The notes under the pieces: generated by a model | Told to the model about the DNA's origin: nothing | Database searches by the model: none | What the model saw: only the letters and a program-made list of their open reading frames with translations | Shown here: positions 2,811-29,379 of the stretch, piece after piece | Numbering within the stretch: position 1 is the stretch's first letter | Layout: every line of letters starts with the position of its first letter | Origin: a virus | IMG/VR virus record: IMGVR_UViG_3300046007_012091 | Coordinates: 1 to 45,531 of that record | Strand: one strand, 5' to 3' | Length of the DNA: 45,531 nucleotides | Made by a program: the position numbers and the translations under genes

Positions 2811-5800
2811 TTAGTCCTCCACATGGAGTTTGGCTATATCCTTACGTTCTCCTAATACCATAAAATAAAAATCTGTAGCGCCAAAAATATTTTCATTACC
2901 GATGTGTATTTTTGAATTTTCAATATTTTTCACATAGAGTTTTTGATGATTATCAATTGGTGTCAATGAAACTGTAATTGTGTCCATATCTACCAATGAC
3001 ATCCAATAATCTGGCAGGTCAATAACTGTACTATTTTTTAATCTTCCACGAACGTAAACACCATTTTCAGGACCTTCAAGAGATCCATATACTAACATCT
3101 TACCTTCTTGTGTCGGATGAGGAATACGGAAAGACTTTGTGGTAGCGAATAATGACCCGGCGACATATAAATCTTTTCCGACACCAACTCCTCCAGTTAC
3201 AACTAGTGCACCAGTCGTAGTAGAGGTAGATTGCGTAGTATTTGATATAGTTAGAACATTGGGATAAGGATTATCTATTAATCCACTAAAACCACTGATA
3301 CCTGAATATCCAGAGAAACCACTGATACCTGAATATCCAGAGAAACCACTGATACCTGAATAACCACTAAATCCACTGATACCTGAGTATCCTGAGAAAC
3401 CACTGATACCTGAGTATCCTGAGAAACCACTGATACCTGAGTATCCTGAGAAACCACTGATACCTGAGTATCCGCTTTTTCCAGAGTATGCCGTATCTAA
3501 CACACCGTAGATTGTACCACCGACATATAAATCTTTTCCAATACCAGCACCGCCGGCAACTACTAAAGCACCTGTAGTTGTACTTGTAGCATTTGTACTT
3601 GCAGGGATAGTAACTTGATTGGCTGAATTGGCTGTGAGTTTAATATTGCCAACACCATCACTAATTATAACATTGCACGAACTTGTAGCTATTGTAGATC
3701 CGTTATTTCCACCTATGATAACATTGGAATTACCTGTTGTGATCGAGCATCCTGCACATTCTCCAATTGCTATATTATTGCATCCGAATGTATTATTGAA
3801 AAGTGCTTTACAACCAATAGCAATATTATCAACACCAATGCTATTACAGTTAAGTGCAGCAAGTCCTACAGCAATATTGTTACAACCTGTAGTGTTATTA
3901 GTAAGTGCACAATTTCCGAGAGCAACATTATCACTACCGGTGGTATTAAAATAAAGTGCACCCCCTCCGATAGCAATATTACAAGAACCAAATGTATTAC
4001 AATGAAGTGATCTACATCCTACTGCAAAGTTAAAAATTCCAGTAGTGTTACCATATAGTGATCTGAAACCTAAAGCAGTATTATCAACACCAGTAGTATT
4101 ACAAAATAGTGCCTGATATCCTTGAGCATTATTTCTTAAGCCCGATGTGTTATTAAACAATGCACAAAATCCAATACCGATATTATTATTACCTGTAGTA
4201 TTACAACGGAGAGCATTTAACCCTATTGCTGTATTGTTAATACCTGAAGTATTACCATAGAGAGCATTACAACCTATTGCAATATTGTTTCTACCTGTGG
4301 TATTACAACGGAGAACATTGTTACCAATAGCTACATTATTACATCCTATGGTATTGTTAAAGAGAGCATTGATTCCAATTGCTGTATTGGCACATCCTGT
4401 AGTATTACCATATAGAGCATTACCCCCAATAGCAGTGTTGTTAACACCTGTGGTATTACAACGGAGAGCATTGAATCCAATTGCAGTATTTAAACAACCT
4501 GTAGTATTGTATACGAGAGCAGAGACACCAATTGCGGTATTATAATTACCTGTGGTATTACAACGGAGAGCATCTCGACCAACTGCGGTGTTGCTAACAC
4601 CTATGGTATTTATACAAAGGGCATTGACTCCAATAGCAGTGTTGTTAACACCTGTAGTATTACAACGTAGAGCTTCAAACCCGATTGCGGTGTTACAATT
4701 ACCTATGGTATTACCATATAGAGCATTACCCCCAATTGCTGTGTTGTTGATACCTGTGGTATTACAACGGAGAGCATTGAATCCAATTGCAGTATTAAAA
4801 CAACCTGTAGTATTGTATATGAGACTCCCAACCCCAATTGCGGTATTATAATTACCTGTGGTATTACAACGGAGAGCACTTAATCCAATAGCGACATTCT
4901 GCATACCTATGATATTACAACGGAGAGCATTGTGTCCAATTGCTGTATTATCACAACCTGTGGTATTACCATAGAGAGCACCAAACCCGATTGCAGTGTT
5001 AAAGTTACCTGTTGTATTACAAAGGAGAGCATTGACCCCAATAGCAACATTCTGGATACCTGTGGTATTACAACGGAGAGCATTGAATCCAATTGCTGTA
5101 TTGGCACATCCTGTAGTATTACCATAGAGAGAACCAACCCCGATTGCGGTGTTAAAGTTACCTGTTGTATTACAACGGAGAGCACTTAATCCAATTGCTG
5201 TATTGGCACATCCTGTAGTATTACCATATAGAGCATTACCCCCAATAGCAGTGTTGTTAACACCTGTGGTATTACAACGGAGAGCATTGGTTCCTATAGC
5301 TATATTACAGGTACCGGTTGTAAGACTAGATAAACTTAAACGACCAATAGCAATATTATCTGATCCAGAATTTGTTGTATTGCCAGATTGATATCCTAAA
5401 CTTATATTATTATTAGAAGGTGTATAAGCATATACTGTGCCTAATGCAGTAGGAGTTGCAGACCATGTACTGGCAGTTGTTATTACATTAGAACCATTTT
5501 GTGTCAGTGCACCTGTAAGGTTGAGATTACCACCGACATATAAATCTTTTCCAATACCAGCTCCACCGGTAACCACAAGTGCTCCAGATGTTGTACTTGT
5601 TGCATTTGTGCTATTGGTAGTTTGAATAATATCATCAGTTACAACTAAAGTAGTGGTCACTGTGGTTAACTCAATGGTCAATTTTTGCGCAACTATTTCA
5701 CCACCGACATATAAATTGCCACCAACTCCTACACCACCTGATACCTGTAATGCGCCAGTAATTGTAGAACTAGCTTGCGTTACATTTGTAATTGTTAAAA

Positions 5801-7076
5801 TTCCAGAAAATGGATTATCGATTAAACCACTAAAACCACTTCTTCCTGAATATCCACTAAATCCAGAGAAGCCACTTATACCCGAATATCCGCTGATACC
5901 TGAAAAACCACTTATACCTGAGTACCCACTGATACCTGAGAAACCACTGATACCTGAGTACCCACTGATGCCTGAGTACCCACTGATGCCTGAGAAACCA
6001 CTGATACCTGAGTACCCACTGATGCCTGAGTACCCACTGATGCCTGAGTACCCACTGATACCTGAATAACCTGAATAGCCACTAAATCCACTGATACCTG
6101 AATATCCTGAATAACCACTTATACCCGAATAACCACTTATACCTGAGAAACCACTGATACCTGAATAGCCTGATATACCACTGTAACCAGAATCACCTGA
6201 AAAACCACTTGATGAAAATGCTGCCGCTCCGCTAAATCCTGAATAGCCTGAGATTCCTGAATACCCCGATTCACCACTGTAACCGCTGTAACTCGAATAT
6301 CCACTAATACCTGAATATCCACTAATACCTGAATATCCGCTATATCCACTTATACCACTATATCCACTGAAACCCGAATATGCTGTGTCTAATACACCAT
6401 AAATTGTACCACCAACATATAGATCTTTTTCAATTCCTACACCGCCTGCAACCTGTAGAGACCCAGACTGAGTACTGACAGCATTAGTAGAACCTACTAA
6501 TATAAGATCTTTAGCCCTGATAGTTCCGTAACTTGTTCCAGTGAATACACCATTAGTTTCTGTCCCGTCATCGAACCATTCTAAATAACCAGAAGCATTA
6601 TCCCAACCTAAAAATGAAGTTTTATCTACACCTTTATAAAAATGAAAAATGAAACCTATGTCTTTACCGTCATCAAATGTCCAGTCATGGTTGTTTATAT
6701 CTCCCCCTGGGGGTATGTGTAATTGAATAAGATTATCAGTATATACCGTATTTGTACTCAAGACAAAAGTTGAAGTACCATTAAATATTACAATATCATT
6801 GAACAGTGCAGGTCCATCTACAACTAAACTTTCATCAAACCACCCACCACCTTTAACATACAAAGCATTTGCTGTACTAGTACCAGTATTCCAACTCGTA
6901 CTGTTAACAATTAAATTTTCACCGACATATGTACCACCGACAACCTTTAATGCCCCATTACCGCCTCCTGTAACCACCGCCAAGGTAGTAGTTGTTATAG
7001 TAGTTTCACCTCCTATTTGTGTATCAGATTGTACAGAAAGACTTTTGAGTACGAAATCATTATTAAAAGTTGTCAT
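2811..7076 (-). CDS. Long tail-fibre protein, collagen-like and 17-aa Cys repeats
   Basis: This 1421-aa protein has clear modular architecture. Residues 1-230 hold strands and a TQSGSLQVAGGVGIEKDLYVGG module. Residues about 233-417 are collagen-like Gly-X-Ser triplets (GYS, GIS, GFS). Residues about 575-1120 are 32 tandem 17-residue repeats of the type NTAIGxNALRCNTTGxx, resembling the NxAIGxxA head repeats of trimeric adhesins. A second collagen-like block lies at about 1195-1265. A compact C-terminal domain (KSFRIPHPTQEGKMLVYGSLEGPENG..., ending HVED) matches a C-terminal domain common in marine T4-like fibre proteins. It is probably a trimeric fibre shaft. The start is ATG at 7076 with AAGGT upstream. 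It is followed immediately by the LamG genes, its likely partners. Confidence 0.8.
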   Translation of the reverse strand: MTTFNNDFVLKSLSVQSDTQIGGETTITTTTLAVVTGGGNGALKVVGGTYVGENLIVNSTSWNTGTSTANALYVKGGGWFDESLVVDGPALFNDIVIFNGTSTFVLSTNTVYTDNLIQLHIPPGGDINNHDWTFDDGKDIGFIFHFYKGVDKTSFLGWDNASGYLEWFDDGTETNGVFTGTSYGTIRAKDLILVGSTNAVSTQSGSLQVAGGVGIEKDLYVGGTIYGVLDTAYSGFSGYSGISGYSGYSGISGYSGISGYSSYSGYSGESGYSGISGYSGFSGAAAFSSSGFSGDSGYSGISGYSGISGFSGISGYSGISGYSGYSGISGFSGYSGYSGISGYSGISGYSGISGYSGISGFSGISGYSGISGYSGISGFSGISGYSGISGFSGISGYSGISGFSGFSGYSGRSGFSGLIDNPFSGILTITNVTQASSTITGALQVSGGVGVGGNLYVGGEIVAQKLTIELTTVTTTLVVTDDIIQTTNSTNATSTTSGALVVTGGAGIGKDLYVGGNLNLTGALTQNGSNVITTASTWSATPTALGTVYAYTPSNNNISLGYQSGNTTNSGSDNIAIGRLSLSSLTTGTCNIAIGTNALRCNTTGVNNTAIGGNALYGNTTGCANTAIGLSALRCNTTGNFNTAIGVGSLYGNTTGCANTAIGFNALRCNTTGIQNVAIGVNALLCNTTGNFNTAIGFGALYGNTTGCDNTAIGHNALRCNIIGMQNVAIGLSALRCNTTGNYNTAIGVGSLIYNTTGCFNTAIGFNALRCNTTGINNTAIGGNALYGNTIGNCNTAIGFEALRCNTTGVNNTAIGVNALCINTIGVSNTAVGRDALRCNTTGNYNTAIGVSALVYNTTGCLNTAIGFNALRCNTTGVNNTAIGGNALYGNTTGCANTAIGINALFNNTIGCNNVAIGNNVLRCNTTGRNNIAIGCNALYGNTSGINNTAIGLNALRCNTTGNNNIGIGFCALFNNTSGLRNNAQGYQALFCNTTGVDNTALGFRSLYGNTTGIFNFAVGCRSLHCNTFGSCNIAIGGGALYFNTTGSDNVALGNCALTNNTTGCNNIAVGLAALNCNSIGVDNIAIGCKALFNNTFGCNNIAIGECAGCSITTGNSNVIIGGNNGSTIATSSCNVIISDGVGNIKLTANSANQVTIPASTNATSTTTGALVVAGGAGIGKDLYVGGTIYGVLDTAYSGKSGYSGISGFSGYSGISGFSGYSGISGFSGYSGISGFSGYSGISGFSGYSGISGFSGYSGISGFSGLIDNPYPNVLTISNTTQSTSTTTGALVVTGGVGVGKDLYVAGSLFATTKSFRIPHPTQEGKMLVYGSLEGPENGVYVRGRLKNSTVIDLPDYWMSLVDMDTITVSLTPIDNHQKLYVKNIENSKIHIGNENIFGATDFYFMVLGERKDIAKLHVED
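3280..3484 (-). repeat. Collagen-like Gly-X-Ser coding repeat, block 2
   Basis: A second, shorter block of about 65 codons of GYS/GIS/GFS triplets. It contains almost identical 30-bp DNA units (ISGFSGYSG repeated), which suggests very recent expansion by slippage or recombination. Confidence 0.85.
3710..5340 (-). repeat. 32 tandem 51-bp coding repeats (17 aa)
   Basis: I counted about 32 successive units of 17 codons with consensus N(T/I/V)AIGxxALxxNTTGxx. Units tend to alternate between a form with Cys at position 11 (ALRCNTTG) and a form with Cys at position 16 (ALYGNTTGC), giving a 34-aa super-period. Degeneracy increases towards the C-terminal end. The repeats are translated, so this is a protein repeat array and not a CRISPR. 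Confidence 0.9.
5826..6376 (-). repeat. Collagen-like Gly-X-Ser coding repeat, block 1
   Basis: About 180 codons of G-Y-S, G-I-S and G-F-S triplets, interrupted once by AAAFSSSG. Glycine every third residue is the collagen signature. Here X is aromatic or aliphatic and Y is serine, with no proline. At DNA level it is a long, near-perfect short-period repeat prone to length change. Confidence 0.85.
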
Positions 7077-16901: not shown

Positions 16902-17786
16902 TTAATTATTTGCGATTTGAACTGTACCAGTCGTAGCGGTATCTAAACTCCAACGTGTTACATCACCGTCGGCATATTCATAAGAACCGGTTGATAGATT
17001 ATACTGATACAATCTTGCTTTTCTTGATGTCAGTTTGTCAACAAAATAAGTGTTACCTAAAACATCAGAGGCAGTAATATACATTTCTCCTGATGCCAAT
17101 GTTGAAGTTGTTACTAAAATACACTGACCTGAACCTTGTGCAGTTTGCACAAGATATCTGCGACTAGCTTCTTGTTTCATAATATCACCAATTACACCAC
17201 TACTACCGCCAGGAACATAAGCGTAGACAGTAATACCATTTTGTTGGCTGCTAGTTAATGATGTTACAAATGAAGCACCACTACCATCATCGCGGAAAAT
17301 TAAAGTACCTGTAACTGTGCTTGCATTTGCCACGCTTGGCACAACTGATGCAGATGCTATTGAATTTATTTTTGCGCTAGCACCTACACCTGTACCAGTA
17401 ATAGACATTCCTACAAATAAACCAGATGTAGTTACATATATAACGCTTTGCCCCGATGTACCGGTACCTGCTACATTAACTCCTGTTGCAGTAGTAACTG
17501 TAATTGTTGCTGTACTTGTATAACCGGCTCCATTTGATGTAACAGAAACTGCTGTAATTCCGCCGTTACCTGATGTTACCGTAGCAGATCCTGTAGCAGT
17601 AGATCCTCCTGAAATCTGAGGATTACTAAAAGTAATTGTTGCACCTTCAGAGTAGTTAGTACCAGATGAACCAACTACTACGGTTGATACTCCTTCTCCG
17701 CCGACTCCAGTCAGTCCGCCAGTTTGTGCATCATCGTATGGTGCATTTGTATTTGCAAAATATTTTTTATTAATAGGACGTCCCAT
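16902..17786 (-). CDS. Putative virion protein downstream of gene 23
   Basis: A 294-aa protein beginning MGRPINKKYFANTNAPYD, an opening recognisable from proteins encoded next to the major capsid gene of marine T4-like phages. The middle is rich in Gly/Thr/Ser/Val strands with repeats of the type VVVGSSGTNYSEGATITFSN and VSVTSNGAGYTSTATITV. The C-terminal 90 residues (YLVQTAQGSGQCILVTTS..., ARLYQYNLSTGSYEYADG) look like a compact beta domain. It has a strong Shine-Dalgarno (AAGGAG, 6 nt before ATG) and is framed by the gene 23 terminator upstream and its own terminator downstream. It is therefore a separate late unit. A capsid-decoration or head-associated role is inferred from position only. 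Confidence 0.65.
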   Translation of the reverse strand: MGRPINKKYFANTNAPYDDAQTGGLTGVGGEGVSTVVVGSSGTNYSEGATITFSNPQISGGSTATGSATVTSGNGGITAVSVTSNGAGYTSTATITVTTATGVNVAGTGTSGQSVIYVTTSGLFVGMSITGTGVGASAKINSIASASVVPSVANASTVTGTLIFRDDGSGASFVTSLTSSQQNGITVYAYVPGGSSGVIGDIMKQEASRRYLVQTAQGSGQCILVTTSTLASGEMYITASDVLGNTYFVDKLTSRKARLYQYNLSTGSYEYADGDVTRWSLDTATTGTVQIANN

Positions 17787-17863
17787 TTGTTTCTCCTTTG
17801 TATTAGACAGTTCTATTGCCTACGCGGTGGGTGCCGCATAAACCCCTAAAAGGGCGAACAAAT

Positions 17864-17926: not shown

Positions 17927-19108
17927 TTACTTGAAGCTAACTTTAGCGTGAGTAATTGCAACTTTACCTAAGTAGTCAGCGGCGTTACCGAGTGAGCTAG
18001 CTGTATTTGTTAACTCAACATAACCGTAACGTGTTAAGAAGCCAACTACTGGCTCGAATGTTGCCGGATCAAGAACAACACCGGAGCTCATTAGAGGAAT
18101 ATATGGGCAATAGAAAGCAGCAGCATCAGCTTCGCTTGCGCCCTTATAACCAATTAGAACCTGATTGTTGTCTTGTGCTGTTGCATCGCTTAGATATGCA
18201 TCAACATAAACACGCATTGCGCCATTTAGTGTACCAACAAACTTGGTGTTAGTTGGTGCTTCAAAAGTGCCTTCTGTTGTACGAGCGAATGCACTAGTTG
18301 TTGCGCTTTGAAGAATTGTAAGAGCTTGGTTAGAAACAACTGCCCAATTACCAGCACCACGACGTGTACGCTGAGCAATCAAGTTTGCAACACGGTTGAT
18401 TTGAATTGCAAGAGCAGCATGTTCATCGCCAACGAATGTAGCAGTACCAGAAACTAATGACTGGTCATATGTTTCTTCAACACTGGCTAAACTACGTAGA
18501 GAAGCAAGAATCTCTTGATCGATCTCAGCAGTAATTTCTTGTGCTAGAGCAGCCATAATTTCTGCTTCAATATCGATACCTTGTTGTGCTTGTGCGTCTT
18601 GTGCAGCCTCAAAGGTCCAGCGAGCGCTTAGTTTACGTGACTTAGCTTCTACTGGTGCCTTTAAGATTTGAATGCTCATTCTACGACCTGGACGACCTTC
18701 TAAGCTAGCAGTTGTGTCAGCTTTAGGTGTTGCGTCTACGTTATTACCTGAGTAAGCAGCAGCAATCTTGAATGGGCTTAGAGCTTCTTCACCTGCTACA
18801 ACGTTGTTGCCGTCATCAGCATAACGAACACGTAGTGTATGGATTTGTGCAACTGGTCCAGTCATAGGCTGAACACCAACGATTTCGTTAGCAATAACGG
18901 TTGGCATTACACGACGAATTACTGGAAGAATAACACGGTTAAGTGTTGCAATATTTCCTGTGCTTGTTGCGCCAGCGGTTGCGCTTTCTGTCAAGTAACG
19001 ACGAGTATTTTCTAAACATACGTCCATGACTCCGCGCTTATTACCCTGTAGGCCTTCAAGCAGAGCGACTTTGGTCTCTGACCATCTTTCATTTAAAAGT
19101 TGTGACAT
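17927..19108 (-). CDS. 23: Major capsid protein gp23
   Basis: A 393-aa protein in the T4 order 20-21-22-23, with recognisable gp23 segments: an N-terminal LLEGLQGNKR and LENTRRYL region; IATLNRVILPVIRRVMPTVIANEIVGVQPM near residues 53-83; then LRVRYAD and the RKLSARWTFEAAQDAQAQ helix. It is much shorter than T4 gp23 (521 aa), placing it among the more distant T4 relatives. Short L-x-E motifs in the first 30 residues (LNE, LLE) could be gp21 processing sites, but this is inference. It is preceded by an excellent Shine-Dalgarno (AAGGAGAC) and followed by a UUCG terminator. It forms the hexameric shell of the head. Confidence 0.93.
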   Translation of the reverse strand: MSQLLNERWSETKVALLEGLQGNKRGVMDVCLENTRRYLTESATAGATSTGNIATLNRVILPVIRRVMPTVIANEIVGVQPMTGPVAQIHTLRVRYADDGNNVVAGEEALSPFKIAAAYSGNNVDATPKADTTASLEGRPGRRMSIQILKAPVEAKSRKLSARWTFEAAQDAQAQQGIDIEAEIMAALAQEITAEIDQEILASLRSLASVEETYDQSLVSGTATFVGDEHAALAIQINRVANLIAQRTRRGAGNWAVVSNQALTILQSATTSAFARTTEGTFEAPTNTKFVGTLNGAMRVYVDAYLSDATAQDNNQVLIGYKGASEADAAAFYCPYIPLMSSGVVLDPATFEPVVGFLTRYGYVELTNTASSLGNAADYLGKVAITHAKVSFK

Positions 19109-23956: not shown

Positions 23957-26143
23957 TCAATTCGGACTAGGAAAAAGATTCCTATCCAATCGTCTTGTTG
24001 CTTCATAAGTTCTTTGAGTGTTGTCTGAGGTCTGTCTCATTAGATTAATCATCGAAGCTGTTTGATTATTTAATAAAATCAATTGCTGCAATAAAGATTC
24101 TCCCCCTGATCCAACTGCTACGGCACTGGAAGATTGTGGTTGATTACTACCTGCCGGAGGGGATTCACTATCCTCTTCTTCACTAGACTTTAAAAATGTT
24201 TCTAAGTTTCTTATTGTCTGTATTAAAGCTCCTGCTCCACCTCCAACAATTGCTCCAGCTGCTGTTCCTACACCCGGTACCACTGATCCTACAGCAGCAC
24301 CTATTCCAGCACCTGTAGCTGCTCCTCCTGCTATATTCAATCCTGCAGCAGTTCTAGGCATCCCTGCTGCTTGAGCATTATCTGATAAAAGATCAGCACC
24401 TACTCCTAGTATTCCTAGTAGAGAACCGGCCCCTACTCCTCTAAGAACTCTTCCCCCGGTACCTCCGCCTGGTGTTCTTCCAGTACCTGTGCCTCCACCT
24501 CCGCCTGGTACTCCGCCACCTGGTATTCCGCCTCCGCCCATTAGTTGTTTTGCAGCATATAATGCAATAATGGTTTTAAGTGCTATAAATGCTGTAGTTA
24601 AAGCGATTGTAACATTGATTAAATTAATAAATCCAGTTTTTATACCTAATAAATTTCCTATAAATTCTTCTGCTTTCTTTACAAACCCATCTATCTTATC
24701 TACCATAGGTTTCAAACCCTGAATCAAAGGATTCATACCGTCTAGCATTTTTTTGATATCAGGCAACGTTTTTTCAAGGATAGTAGTACCTAATTCCTGC
24801 ATAGCTTTTTCAGTTTTAGCTGCATTTGCGGCTTCAGATGCTGTTCTTTCTTTTTGATTATCAAGAATTCCTTCCATCTGCCGTTGAGCATCTTCTTCAG
24901 TTTTTATACCTTGAGCATTCATTCTATTACGAGTAGACATCATTCCTGCTACTGTAGTATTACCCTGCATAACCATAACATCTGCGGCTTTACCCATTCT
25001 TGATACGTCAGTAGCAATAGCTACTCCCAATCTACCACCTTCTCGCATTTGGTCATTAATTGTTTTGGATGCATCATTGACATTTCTAGCCAAGGAACTT
25101 ATACTTTGGGTACCTCTTGCGCTTAATCCAGCAAACTCTGCCGAAGCTTTTGTAATACCCGGTCCTATACCTAACAATTCACCTTGTAAAGCTTGAACTG
25201 CACCTTTCCCCCCCTGTGCCATAGCTACCTGCATAGCAGCATTAGCTTTTTTTCTTCCTTCTTCATCTAATGTCTGTAAATAGGCCTGATAAGCTGCGTT
25301 TGCTGCTTCCTCTTTAAGTTGATTTTCTAAAGCCTCTTTACTTTTACCGGTCATTTGACTCAACGCATCTAAATTCTGCATATATTCGGCAGCACTTTGA
25401 GCTAGTGCATTGGTATTTTTCATTTCTTCTTTGGTTCTGCCGCCTGTCATTGTAATGTAATTTGCAAGACTTTGACTGGCTGTTTCTCCAGTATATCCCA
25501 ATGCTCTCAGTTGGTCACCTAGGTCACTTTTTAATAAAGTTTGACTAACTTTAACAAAACTACGAGCACCATCATCTGCCGTAGATCCCATCATAGCCAT
25601 TGATTCACTGTTACGGTTCATCAGGGCAGTAAATTGATCTAAAGTCATGTATGTTTTGCTAGCAGCTAATCTTATTTCAGTTAAACTTCCTCCAAAATTG
25701 ATTCCAGCTGTGCTCATATTTCTATATGAAGTCAGCATCTGTTCTTGGAATTGGGCTAATCTTTGCATACCTGAGAAGACCAATCCTAATGGTCCTCCCA
25801 TTCTAGCCAATACTCCTAGAGTATCGCTGGCTTTACCAGTTCCCACTGTCATTGTTTGAGTGAGATCTAATACATTGTTTAATCCTAGACGTAATTGATT
25901 GCTACCTACATTAATAGCACCTAAGGCAGCACCGGTCATGGCTACCGATTTTCCAAATGCACCTAACTGTTGTTGTGCTCCGGTAATGTTTAGTCCTGCC
26001 GAGCCTGCTATGTTTGAAACAGCAGCCGCAGTACCTTTTCCCGATGTGGAAACCGCAGCTATAAGTTGTCGTAATGTTGCTTCTGTTGCAGCATTATTCA
26101 GCTCAACCTGCTCATTGCCTATTCGTCCAAATACGTCAGCCAT
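23957..26143 (-). CDS. 29-like: Tail tape measure protein
   Basis: A 728-aa protein with tape-measure features: a long helical Ala/Gln/Met-rich body (residues about 1-480, including NMSTAGINFGGSLTEIRLAA and MTGKSKEALENQLKEEAANA segments); a hydrophobic segment near residues 505-535 (INVTIALTTAFIALKTIIAL); a Gly-rich linker near 540-575; and a glycine-zipper hydrophobic stretch near 610-650 (GAGIGAAVGSVVPGVGTAAG). Such hydrophobic segments suggest insertion into the host inner membrane during DNA ejection. It lies head-to-head with gene 26, a chaperone/hub gene, across an 85-bp gap. No Shine-Dalgarno is seen before the ATG at 26143. T4 gp29 is 590 aa, so the tail may be longer. Confidence 0.8.
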   Translation of the reverse strand: MADVFGRIGNEQVELNNAATEATLRQLIAAVSTSGKGTAAAVSNIAGSAGLNITGAQQQLGAFGKSVAMTGAALGAINVGSNQLRLGLNNVLDLTQTMTVGTGKASDTLGVLARMGGPLGLVFSGMQRLAQFQEQMLTSYRNMSTAGINFGGSLTEIRLAASKTYMTLDQFTALMNRNSESMAMMGSTADDGARSFVKVSQTLLKSDLGDQLRALGYTGETASQSLANYITMTGGRTKEEMKNTNALAQSAAEYMQNLDALSQMTGKSKEALENQLKEEAANAAYQAYLQTLDEEGRKKANAAMQVAMAQGGKGAVQALQGELLGIGPGITKASAEFAGLSARGTQSISSLARNVNDASKTINDQMREGGRLGVAIATDVSRMGKAADVMVMQGNTTVAGMMSTRNRMNAQGIKTEEDAQRQMEGILDNQKERTASEAANAAKTEKAMQELGTTILEKTLPDIKKMLDGMNPLIQGLKPMVDKIDGFVKKAEEFIGNLLGIKTGFINLINVTIALTTAFIALKTIIALYAAKQLMGGGGIPGGGVPGGGGGTGTGRTPGGGTGGRVLRGVGAGSLLGILGVGADLLSDNAQAAGMPRTAAGLNIAGGAATGAGIGAAVGSVVPGVGTAAGAIVGGGAGALIQTIRNLETFLKSSEEEDSESPPAGSNQPQSSSAVAVGSGGESLLQQLILLNNQTASMINLMRQTSDNTQRTYEATRRLDRNLFPSPN

Positions 26144-26167: not shown

Positions 26168-26175
26168 TATAAATA
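26168..26175 (+). promoter_or_regulatory. Late promoter TATAAATA for gene 26
   Basis: An exact T4-type late element (TATAAATATG) on the plus strand, about 50 nt before the gene 26 ATG. The leader carries the Shine-Dalgarno GGAGAC. Confidence 0.7.
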
Positions 26176-26228: not shown

Positions 26229-27095
26229 ATGGAAAATATCCAAAATACAGTAAATCCTTTGACACATTTCATGAGACAACCAAAAATTTACATAAAATTA
26301 CCAAGTCAAGGGCAATATTGGCCTCCAGGGTCGCTGATCAAAACTGAAAATCAAGAATACCCTGTATATTCGATGACAGCCAAGGACGAACTGATTTTAA
26401 AAGTACCTGATGCATTAATGAATGGTCAAGCAGTAGTCGATGTGATACAAAACTGTGTCCCTAATATAAAAAATGCATGGGCAATACCTTCTATAGATGT
26501 TGATTATATTTTAATAGCCATAAGGATAGCTACATATGGAGAAAAGATGAATTTTCCTATAAGTATTTCCGATGACTATAATGTCGATTACGAAGTCGAT
26601 CTTAGAAATATAATGGATCGATTAACAGCTCAAATTACTTGGGAACCGGTTATTCCTATAAATGAAAATCTTACTGTATATGTAAAGCCTATTACATATA
26701 AAAACATAACCGAATCGGCATTACAAACATTTGAAACACAAAAAATAATACAGATTGCCAACGACGACTCTTTCAGTGAAGAAAATAAAATTAAAGCTTT
26801 TCAAGAAAGCTTTGCCAAACTGAATTCTGTTACGATTAATCTTGTTTCCAATAGTATATATAGAATAGACAGCAGTGCAGGTAGTACAGAAAATCCAAAA
26901 TTTATCAAAGAATTTATAGAAAATGTTGATAAAGAAATATTCAATGTTATTCAAAATCACTTAGATATTTTAAAAGAAAAGAATATTTTGAAACCAATTA
27001 CTGTAGATGTTACAGAAGAAATGAGAAACTTAGGTGTTCAAGGAGATACAATAGAAGTTCCTTTGGTGTTTGATGCATCTAATTTTTTCGTGTAA
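26229..27095 (+). CDS. 26: gp26-type baseplate hub/tail chaperone protein
   Basis: A 288-aa protein of the T4 gp26 baseplate family. Recognisable are the start region with the IKLPSQGQYWPPGSL motif near residues 22-36, VYSMTAKDELILKVPDALMNG (near 47-67), IQNCVPNIKNAW, and DYILIAIRIATYG followed by a pair of acidic YxxDYEVDL strands. The Shine-Dalgarno GGAGAC lies 9 nt before the ATG, and an exact TATAAATA late promoter lies further upstream. The zero-frame ends SNFFV-stop, but its last codons form a U UUU UUC slippery site leading into a -1-frame ORF. It may thus make a short form (288 aa) and a frameshifted long form (about 363 aa), as lambda G and GT do. Role: hub assembly or tape-measure chaperoning. 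Confidence 0.88.
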   Translation: MENIQNTVNPLTHFMRQPKIYIKLPSQGQYWPPGSLIKTENQEYPVYSMTAKDELILKVPDALMNGQAVVDVIQNCVPNIKNAWAIPSIDVDYILIAIRIATYGEKMNFPISISDDYNVDYEVDLRNIMDRLTAQITWEPVIPINENLTVYVKPITYKNITESALQTFETQKIIQIANDDSFSEENKIKAFQESFAKLNSVTINLVSNSIYRIDSSAGSTENPKFIKEFIENVDKEIFNVIQNHLDILKEKNILKPITVDVTEEMRNLGVQGDTIEVPLVFDASNFFV

Positions 27096-27163
27096 GGCTT
27101 TTGTATCTTTCAATACAAGAAATTGAAAAAATAATCAATACTCATGAAACAGATACAAAAGCC
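27083..27163 (+). promoter_or_regulatory. Candidate -1 programmed frameshift site of gene 26
   Basis: The heptamer T TTT TTC (27083-27089) is in phase with the gene 26 codons TTT TTC. The -1 frame has a stop at 27080-27082, immediately before the heptamer, and the zero frame stops at 27093-27095. The overlap window between the two frames is therefore just the slippery site. After a 6-nt spacer, GGCTTTTGTATC (27096-27107) pairs perfectly over 12 bp with GATACAAAAGCC (27152-27163). A competing local hairpin (27099-27106 with 27113-27120) could tune efficiency. Confidence 0.75.
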
Positions 27164-27319
27164 ATAAAACAAGAACTTTTTAAATTATGTTGGTACATGC
27201 GAGGTAGTATAACTTATCATCAAATGTTAGATCTAACATTTGAAGAAAGAGAAATTATAAGTAAAATAGTTGAAGAAAACCTTAAAACCACTAAAGAAAG
27301 TGGTTTACCTTTTTTTTAA
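27083..27319 (+). CDS. -1-frame extension of gp26 (GT-like tail chaperone domain)
   Basis: The frame opens at 27083 and runs to TAA at 27317-27319. After slippage the added residues are RVRLLYLSIQEIEK... through CWYMRGSITYHQMLDLTFEE to SGLPFF, 76 residues fused after residue 287 of gp26. There is no ATG before position 27178, inside the conserved body. The only early initiator is TTG at 27101, which would give 72 aa, with an AAGG too close to serve as a Shine-Dalgarno. The acidic/helical content and the YMRGSITYxxMxxLTFEERE segment resemble small ORFs that follow gene 26 in marine T4-like phages and tail-chaperone C-terminal domains. Expression by frameshifting is inferred from the slip site, spacer and stem; independent TTG initiation is the alternative. 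Confidence 0.75.
   Translation, partial: FFRVRLLYLSIQEIEKIINTHETDTKAIKQELFKLCWYMRGSITYHQMLDLTFEEREIISKIVEENLKTTKESGLPFF
27285..27317 (+). terminator. Intrinsic terminator inside the end of the gene 26 -1 ORF
   Basis: A perfect 8-bp stem AAACCACT (27285-27292)/AGTGGTTT (27299-27306) with a 6-nt loop is followed by ACC and eight T (27310-27317). It lies within the last 11 codons of the -1-frame ORF. The stop codon follows the T run and overlaps the stop codon of the convergent gene. Confidence 0.8.
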
Positions 27320-27756: not shown

Positions 27757-27840
27757 ATTAAGGGCGAAGCATCGCCCTGCTCTTTCGTCTAAAGACTCAG
27801 AGCAATTTTTCTTTCTATAATTCATCTAGATTAATCGGTC

Positions 27841-28169
27841 ACACTTAGCCCTACTGGGCTAAGAAATGAAAGTTTTCATCTGAGTTGTACCTTTCACATA
27901 ACGTTATAGCATTACAGAGGCGGTCAGCCTGTACCTCGAGCTATGTCTTAATCTGACGGCGGTCACTATACAAACGTTATCTTATATAGTAACGTGGGGT
28001 TTATCTCCCCTCATTTCGCCTGTTCAATTCTTTTCAAACAACCAAATCGCAGGACTTACAAGCGATCTTCATCCATTTGGGTAGTGGTTGAGCACTCTCA
28101 ACGGCGAGAGTTTTACTCATCCCTGCGACACAAGGTCCAGGTATAGAGGTGTATGAAATTAGCCTACAC
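27841..28169 (-). ncRNA. Structured RNA with group I intron-like core
   Basis: The 595 nt between the small gene and the endonuclease ORF (27727-28321) hold no convincing CDS and are more GC-rich and more hairpin-rich than their surroundings. Read on the minus strand, pairings occur in group I order. P2-like GTGTA/TACAC is at 28169-28149. P3-like ACCTTG (28136-28131) pairs with CGAGGT (27938-27933). P4-like TCGCAGG (28128-28122) pairs with CCTGCGA (28053-28047). P6-like GGCG/CGCC is at 28020/27958. P7-like ATAGC (27944-27940) pairs with GCTAT (27910-27906). A P8-like hairpin lies at 27932-27914 between the P3 and P7 3' strands, and a P9-like 8-bp hairpin is at 27863-27844. The P3/P7 pseudoknot order is the group I hallmark. 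Splice sites are not certain and P7 lacks the usual GACUA/UAGUC sequence. Confidence 0.5.
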
Positions 28170-28200
28170 TAGCCGATACCGAATTTATGAGCCTAAGATT

Positions 28201-28321: not shown

Positions 28322-28891
28322 CTAATGGTGTTTGTATTGTTTTCGCGTTTCCGGGTATATTGCCTTGATGTGATAATGATAATTTTTTCTAGTTTCTTGT
28401 GTGAAGATTTGTTTTTTTCGTTTTTCTTTAATTTTTTGTATAGTATCGTTAGATAAAATTCTACCGGTATTTGATTTAGATATTTTTTGTCTAGTTTCTT
28501 CTGAAACAGGTGGTCTTGTTTTACCCAATTTACCTTTTGTAATGTTAGCACAATGTTCTGGTGAAAACTTTTTACCTTTATTTGATGGGGGACAAAATCC
28601 GCCTTTATTCAAATTCCAACCTATATTTTTTGTAGGTCGAACCTCTTCTTCATAAGTATAACAGGCATCAGAATCACCAGTAAATATAATAGATTGAATT
28701 ACTTCGTGTTTATTGATAATTCTTTCTAAATACTTGTTGTGATGTATACCCTTTTTAGCAGCATTTTTATGTTCCCACAGCCGCTGTGTCGGATCAATAG
28801 AAACACCTACGTACCCTTGAGAATGGATGTCTTTGTGTTCGGATAAATGCAACCAGTAGACATAACACTTTTCAGTATTATAAATATTCAT
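28322..28891 (-). CDS. GIY-YIG homing endonuclease
   Basis: 189 aa from the ATG at 28891 (MNIYNTEKCYVYWLHL), chosen because AAGGAA lies 9 nt before it. The longer open frame to 29008 runs back through the preceding gene. The N-terminal half is a GIY-YIG nuclease: CYVYWLHLSE, QGYVGVSIDPTQRLWEHKN with the catalytic Arg in the QRLWEH helix, and the C-terminal Glu in CYTYEEEVRP near residue 85. The C-terminal half holds NUMOD-type DNA-binding repeats (SNKGKKFSPEHCANI, SEETRQKISKSNTGR, SNDTIQKIKEK). Such proteins nick or cleave intronless or endonuclease-free alleles in co-infecting phages. It lies directly 5' of the group-I-like RNA, consistent with an intron-encoded enzyme, although a free-standing Seg-like element is equally possible. 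Confidence 0.85.
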   Translation of the reverse strand: MNIYNTEKCYVYWLHLSEHKDIHSQGYVGVSIDPTQRLWEHKNAAKKGIHHNKYLERIINKHEVIQSIIFTGDSDACYTYEEEVRPTKNIGWNLNKGGFCPPSNKGKKFSPEHCANITKGKLGKTRPPVSEETRQKISKSNTGRILSNDTIQKIKEKRKKQIFTQETRKNYHYHIKAIYPETRKQYKHH

Positions 28892-28953
28892 GCTGATAGT
28901 TCCTTGTAAACTGTTAGAGCGGGTGGATGCGTCAACATCGCGACTCGCAATAT

Positions 28954-28961
28954 TATTTATT
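28954..28961 (-). promoter_or_regulatory. Candidate late promoter AATAAATA for homing endonuclease
   Basis: The minus strand reads GTAATAAATAATATT at the stop codon of the upstream gene, about 60 nt before the endonuclease ATG. A 7-bp inverted repeat AAACTGT/ACAGTTT (28968-28962 and 28914-28908) brackets it. Only read-through transcripts, not transcripts from this promoter, would contain both arms. Confidence 0.4.
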
Positions 28962-29379
28962 ACAGTTTGAATTTTCTTACCTTTACCGATATCCATCCGT
29001 TGTACCATAGATTTTCATTTAATAAAACATCATACTCGAATTGATATTTCGCTTCATAATATGATAATTCATTTTTCGAATTACAATATCTCAAAATCTC
29101 TCTCTTAAAATTAGCCTCGCCTATTTCTGCAACATCAGATCTTAATTCCTCTGAACTTGACCAATATGTTTGCCAGTCTGAGTCTATTTTTGATTTGATT
29201 TTTTGTCTTTTCTTTTTGCCGTTCTTTAACTTTACAGTCTTGTAGGTCGTTTTACTAAACTTTGCTAATTTTTTGCCTATGTATTTTTTACCATTTTCTA
29301 AATTGGTTATAAGGTAAACAAATCCTATACAGTCATCTGGAAGAGTATCAATTTGTTTATCTTGATATAACCATGTCAT
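28960..29379 (-). CDS. GIY-YIG-fold phage nuclease-like protein
   Basis: A 139-aa protein, MTWLYQDKQIDTLPDDCIGF, with a GIY-YIG-like strand pair (GFVYLITNLENGKKYIGKK), a Lys-rich linker (KLKNGKKKRQKIKSK), and then SDWQTYWSSSEELRSDV, FKREILRYCNSK and ELSYYEAKYQFEYDVL. This is a widespread small T4-like phage family usually annotated as hypothetical or putative endonuclease. The end (WYNGWISVKVRKFKL) has the length and pattern I expect for intact members, so I take the gene as complete rather than an exon. It is downstream of the H1-like gene with a 1-nt gap. The physiological target is unknown. Confidence 0.65.
   Translation of the reverse strand: MTWLYQDKQIDTLPDDCIGFVYLITNLENGKKYIGKKLAKFSKTTYKTVKLKNGKKKRQKIKSKIDSDWQTYWSSSEELRSDVAEIGEANFKREILRYCNSKNELSYYEAKYQFEYDVLLNENLWYNGWISVKVRKFKL

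Follow-up and report, generated by a model that had tools for sequence, protein, structure and literature searches.

In phage lambda, the small gene beside the tape measure gene encodes gpG, and a −1 frameshift on the slip site G GGA AAG at the end of this gene yields the minor long product gpGT. For T4-like phages, the abstract of a study by Vladimirov and colleagues is said to describe frameshifting as conserved in several groups, with the T4 group reportedly using two genes. The study (Vladimirov, Gautam & Davidson, Virology 2022;566:9-15) is cited for tail-assembly chaperones by both the PRFect paper (PMC10885494) and the Adele paper (PMC12846349), and, as relayed there, it found that the short gene of T4-like phages carries a polyT slippery site (PMC12846349) and that some T4-like phages have a separate long fusion gene (PMC10885494). 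Here, we analyzed the 3′ end of gene 26 in a viral genome of 45,531 nucleotides (IMG/VR record IMGVR_UViG_3300046007_012091; the whole stretch is called the window), and our comparison of sequences argues for −1 ribosomal frameshifting at this position with a probability of roughly 0.96. As Vladimirov et al. reported such genes in T4-like phages, according to the two citing papers, the frameshifted chaperone of the window belongs to a known kind, and the initial annotation of this DNA, which had suggested that a gp26 frameshift is undescribed, needs correction on this point. With the TAC-N/TAC-NC set of Vladimirov et al., as described in those papers, the locus shares the short and long forms and the polyT slip site, but profile comparison of its −1 domain with T4 gp51 and with the cyanophage set gave nothing significant. 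With lambda gpG/gpGT, it would share a minor long form that is generated by −1 frameshifting at the end of a gene adjoining the tape measure gene, whereas it differs in that the phage is contractile-tailed, the proteins belong to other families, the slip site is T TTT TTC, gene 26 points away from its probable tape measure neighbor, and the slip site is followed by a long-range stem. New aspects may be the clade, this long-range stem, and a C-terminal domain that is not recognizably related to that of T4 gp51.

Gene 26 occupies positions 26229–27095 of the plus strand, from the ATG at 26229 to the TAA at 27093–27095, and its zero-frame product comprises 288 amino acids and ends with DASNFFV. 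The product matches PF12322 (T4_baseplate) with E=6e-10 and 39.6 bits against a curated cut-off of 24.5, as well as the baseplate hub family phrog_150 with E=1e-13, and by these profile matches it is a homologue of T4 gp26. Over the slip site, the zero-frame codons are AAT TTT TTC GTG TAA, and the heptamer T TTT TTC (27083–27089, plus strand) lies in phase with the gene, followed by the 6-nt spacer GTGTAA (27090–27095, plus strand) that includes the zero-frame stop. In the −1 frame, a TAA codon (27080–27082, plus strand) directly precedes the heptamer, which makes a start of the −1 ORF upstream of the heptamer impossible, and past the slip the frame continues over 76 codons (RVRLLYL...GLPFF) to a stop at 27317–27319. 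This extension (27089–27319, plus strand) is the predicted C-terminal part, TAC-C, of a long product TAC-NC of 287 + 76 = 363 amino acids, and as read from the sequence a short protein and a frameshifted long protein thus originate from one gene. The initial annotation had described the in-phase U UUU UUC, the preceding −1 stop, the 76 open codons, and the zero-frame stop just past the heptamer, and all of its coordinates proved to be correct. On the minus strand, divergently to gene 26, a gene at 23957–26143 encodes a 728-residue protein that matches phrog_794 (tail length tape measure) with E=1.4e-6 and weakly matches the protein of a RaK2 neighbor gene annotated as tape-measure-like. The neighbor of gene 26 is therefore probably the tape measure gene, although its identification is weak. 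The late-promoter-like site TATAAATA upstream of gene 26 (26168–26175) is no more frequent in the window than expected by chance, and we do not claim it.

Some further features of the window were recorded. A 1421-residue protein with collagen-like repeats (PF01391), probably a fiber, is encoded at 2811–7076 on the minus strand. Two Rfam RNA motifs were matched on the same strand: freshwater-2 RNA (RF02980) at 17784–17856, with E=4e-5 barely above the cut-off, between the major head protein gene (17927–19108, minus strand) and a gene at 16902–17786 (minus strand), and Polynucleobacter-1 RNA (RF01718) at 28036–28174, with 102 bits against a cut-off of 37 and E=4e-21, in the non-coding stretch between position 27825 and a GIY-YIG gene. 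Beside the latter motif, two neighboring GIY-YIG endonuclease genes, one of them SegE-like (PF19835), are found at 28322–29379 on the minus strand.

T TTT TTC occurs 26 times in the window against 20.9 expected copies, and a heptamer that is so common in this A+T-rich window was set aside as evidence by itself; the case therefore rests on conservation. Using gene 26 as a query against viral contigs, we inspected 23 loci by eye, all of which have a −1 ORF reaching 71–74 codons past the stop. One of them (L001) is identical to the window, and in another (L018) A AAT TTT, three bases earlier in phase, replaces T TTT TTC, with an 11-bp stem downstream. A wider search with a gp26 alignment resulted in 71 distinct untruncated loci, which without exception contain the in-phase T TTT TTC together with a −1 ORF of 69–75 codons past the stop; the zero-frame stop starts 3 nt past the heptamer in 64 of the 71. 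When the −1 domain served as an independent query, the heptamer was found exactly before the domain in 73 of 73 distinct loci, none of which has a long in-frame extension. The two sets overlap in part, as some contigs are in both, and neither was preselected for a T-run heptamer. Such preselection does apply to the 103 non-redundant genomes in which we analyzed codon usage, as they were drawn from loci with a recognized T-run heptamer, leaving L018 and the Ackermannviridae-like loci L062–L065 outside the set. In these genomes, the codon before Phe-Phe ends in T in 103 of 103 cases although it encodes eight different residues (Asn, Thr, Ser, Asp, His, Ala, Tyr, and Arg), whereas upstream control codons have T as the third base in 415 cases and C in 203. 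Both the conservation of the heptamer and the suppression of synonymous changes, which the initial annotation had proposed to check, are thus clearly seen. A homopolymer run at the right place could in principle also permit slippage of RNA polymerase on the six T, and the fusion would then be made without any slippage of the ribosome. However, six T are a short run for an RNA polymerase to slip on, and the run is not free to vary, as the Phe-Phe codons are TTT TTC in 100 of the 103 genomes (TTT TTT in 3), which holds the run at six T followed by C. Furthermore, the downstream stem described below is conserved at ribosomal spacing, and we regard polymerase slippage as the least probable of all explanations considered.

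According to our comparisons, the −1 frame is coding. In 15 pairs, its pN/pS is 0.04–0.57 and lies below both other frames wherever all three could be computed, which indicates purifying selection. The AlphaFold2 model of the −1 domain is helical, with a mean pLDDT of 84.5. It could still be argued that no fusion is made and that the −1 ORF functions as a small gene of its own, with ribosomes either reinitiating past the gene 26 stop or starting at TTG 27101. Several GenBank records do annotate the ORF in this way, an ATG overlaps the gene 26 stop (ATGA) in four relatives (L002, L036, L041, and L044), in which reinitiation could therefore add to expression, and TTG is common at codon 5 of the domain among the relatives. 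In the window itself, the initial annotation was right that there is no ATG near the start of the −1 ORF: TTG 27101 is the sole early start codon, lies within the stem, and has AAGG just 3 nt upstream. However, the −1 domains of PA5oct (L042) and Desulfovibrio phage 7757 (L061) contain no ATG, GTG, or TTG at all, and L008 and L024 offer no start before codons 30 and 37, respectively, so that in some relatives the comparison leaves no other route to the whole domain than the slip site. The conserved RxRLL residues sit directly past the slip, and reinitiation would require neither the heptamer nor the preceding third-base T that are kept at synonymous positions. Separate initiation is therefore hard to maintain in view of the startless relatives, and we consider a small independent gene to be very improbable, if slightly less so than polymerase slippage.

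The second element of the frameshift signal is a stem formed by the predicted 5′ arm at 27096–27108 and 3′ arm at 27151–27163 (both plus strand). A 6-nt spacer and a perfect 12-bp stem had been noted before (27096–27107 with 27152–27163), and a 13th pair (27108 with 27151) has now to be added. The region folds with −20.9 kcal/mol (z = −6.5), and none of 200 dinucleotide shuffles was as good. In an alignment of 12 sequences, 84% of the stem cells are paired, and pairing drops to 42–51% when the partner is shifted by one column. Changes on both sides of a pair amount to 15 cells in this alignment against 5.9 in shuffled alignments (0 of 500 shuffles reach 15). Apart from the main stem, no helix is seen in the consensus fold of the 12 sequences, as given by a program that cannot predict pseudoknots. 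Among 62 gapless relatives, the helix from +6 to +73 ranks first in the region at lengths of 8 and 10 bp, and at 12 bp the lead is taken by registers of the same helix (+3/+76, +4/+75, and +6/+73). Covariation in these sequences is seen at +13/+66, +14/+65, and +15/+64 past the heptamer: the pair +14/+65 is UA in 19, AU in 19, and CG in 6 of them, and the pair +15/+64 is AU in 22 and CG in 14. The median best-helix score is 27.25 compared to 10.5 in codon-shuffled controls, and changes on both sides were counted in 60 cells against 30.4 in shuffles (0 of 1000); the number of covarying pairs and the number of pair types in the 62 sequences are not clearly in excess over shuffles. With an allowed range of 4–8 nt, the best helix begins 4–6 nt past the heptamer in 61 of the 62 relatives, which extends the conservation to spacer and stem, and the loop of about 40–45 nt lies inside the coding −1 frame. 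A covarying structure is thus present at the 5–9 nt past the slip that characterize −1 frameshift cassettes, here with a 6-nt spacer and a 13-bp stem. The contigs L019–L034 have an 8-bp stem of their own, mostly invariant, with the 3′ arm farther downstream. The stem is not universal, since a strong one is absent from the usual place in L005 and in most RaK2-type phages.

What could be the function of the two products? In T4, gp26 (208 amino acids) and gp51 (249 amino acids) both match PF12322 over nearly the full length of the profile, and gp51 has a C-terminal extension that matches phrog_634. T4 gp26 would therefore correspond to the short form and gp51 to the long form, a layout equivalent to the fusion in the window, with the difference that T4 uses two separate, divergent genes. 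The initial annotation had regarded gp51 as a separate chaperone; separate it is in T4, but it looks like a long version of gp26 and not like an unrelated protein. This correspondence, together with the probable tape measure neighbor and the review of the T4 tail, makes a pair of the lambda G/GT type the most likely interpretation, and the early suggestion of a G-like gp26 is further supported by the heptamer, the stem, the selection on the −1 frame, and the startless relatives. It might be objected that the frameshift is real, but that gp26 and its long form are structural parts of the baseplate hub, as the names of both families (PF12322, phrog_150) refer to the baseplate or its hub, the annotation of the CBB homologue calls it a structural protein, and genetic studies favor the presence of T4 gp26 in the hub (PMC3004832). 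In the same review, however, gp26 and gp51 are named among the chaperones of hub assembly, and gp51 is described as required yet absent from the particle (PMC3004832). As a short and a long form beside a probable tape measure gene also reproduce the G/GT pattern, a role as hub parts appears unlikely to us, albeit clearly less so than the two explanations that dispense with a ribosomal frameshift. From position and homology, we thus consider it quite likely that the two products, short and long, act on the tape measure protein as chaperones of tail assembly.

According to the mechanism that we propose, gene 26 would give rise to two proteins. Most ribosomes would terminate at TAA 27093 and release the short, lambda G-like chaperone TAC-N. 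A minority would stall at the stem with the two Phe codons in the P and A sites, both tRNAs would slip back by one base, from UUU/UUC to UUU/UUU, and translation would go on for the 76 codons to give the long chaperone with its helical C-terminal domain. By analogy with gpG/gpGT, the short form may cover the tape measure protein, around which the minor long form may recruit tail-tube subunits through its C-terminal domain. Both the efficiency of frameshifting and the action of the chaperones on the tape measure protein are inferred.

The origin of the C-terminal domain is a question of its own. Searches of Pfam and PHROGs with the −1 domain alone returned nothing significant, and Foldseek gave no match at E<=0.001 and no convincing fold relative for either gp26 or the −1 domain. 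With hhalign, the −1 alignment matched T4 gp51 with a probability of 3.7%, covering only the N-terminal part, and the cyanophage set with 0.7%, without significance; homology to T4 gp51 (phrog_634) or to the cyanophage extensions was therefore rejected as an explanation. T4 gp51 and the cyanophage-type extensions align with each other at E=1.4e-4 and a probability of only 52%. A recognizable but distant relative of the −1 domain is that of the RaK2-type phages (94%). The lack of a match to T4 gp51 would be explained either by replacement of the C-terminal domain or by simple divergence. Tentatively, and with some doubt, we suggest that in this large clade, which is known mostly from environmental metagenomes, the chaperone frameshift depends on the conserved long-range stem, and that the C-terminal domain has an origin separate from that of T4 gp51, the recruiting domain having been replaced while the translational trick was kept.

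The same arrangement was found in the GenBank jumbo phages Phosso, Atu_ph07, PA5oct, XaC1, BF, CBB, GAP32, Vibrio 2.275.O, Munch, RaK2, 121Q, Hallingskeid, XacN1, and SCTP-2, in which the −1 domain is annotated as a separate gene, partially, or not at all. It was also found in P-SSM2, S-TIM4, HTVC008M, phiM7, Aeh1, nt-1, and Desulfovibrio phage 7757, and the heptamer with an open −1 ORF is likewise present in GenBank genomes of Kyanoviridae and Emdodecavirus. The jumbo phages RaK2/121Q/GAP32/CBB and Atu_ph07/Phosso share the heptamer and the position of the −1 domain with the window, and the RaK2, GAP32, and CBB types also have a structural gene divergently beside gp26, which in RaK2 is the one called tape-measure-like; the RaK2/121Q type differs in mostly lacking the long stem at +73. 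The word frameshift does not appear in the Atu_ph07 paper (PMC6102473), and the CBB paper mentions neither a frameshift nor a chaperone. In HTVC008M, a small “gp51”, separately annotated in the −1 frame after gp26, also matches phrog_634. Annotations as “gp51” or baseplate hub assembly catalyst are found in the −1 frame after gp26 in L055 (3250–3387), L057 (2723–2896), L058 (2729–2905), and L059 (2714–2875), and they probably represent the frameshifted C-terminus of gp26 with a guessed start. In Ackermannviridae and similar phages (L062–L065), the −1 ORF after gp26 is kept, but a canonical heptamer is replaced by A CTT TTC, A ATT TTC, or C ATT TTC.

In conclusion, most of the T4-like phages in our sample, jumbo phages included, appear to have frameshifted tail-assembly chaperones, and several public genes that are annotated as “gp51” or “hypothetical protein” 3′ of gp26 probably correspond to the C-terminus of a frameshifted gp26. 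The locus provides a strong frameshift signal of natural origin, complete with a covarying stem, and it offers a clear test case for the question why the T4 branch keeps two genes, gp26 and gp51.
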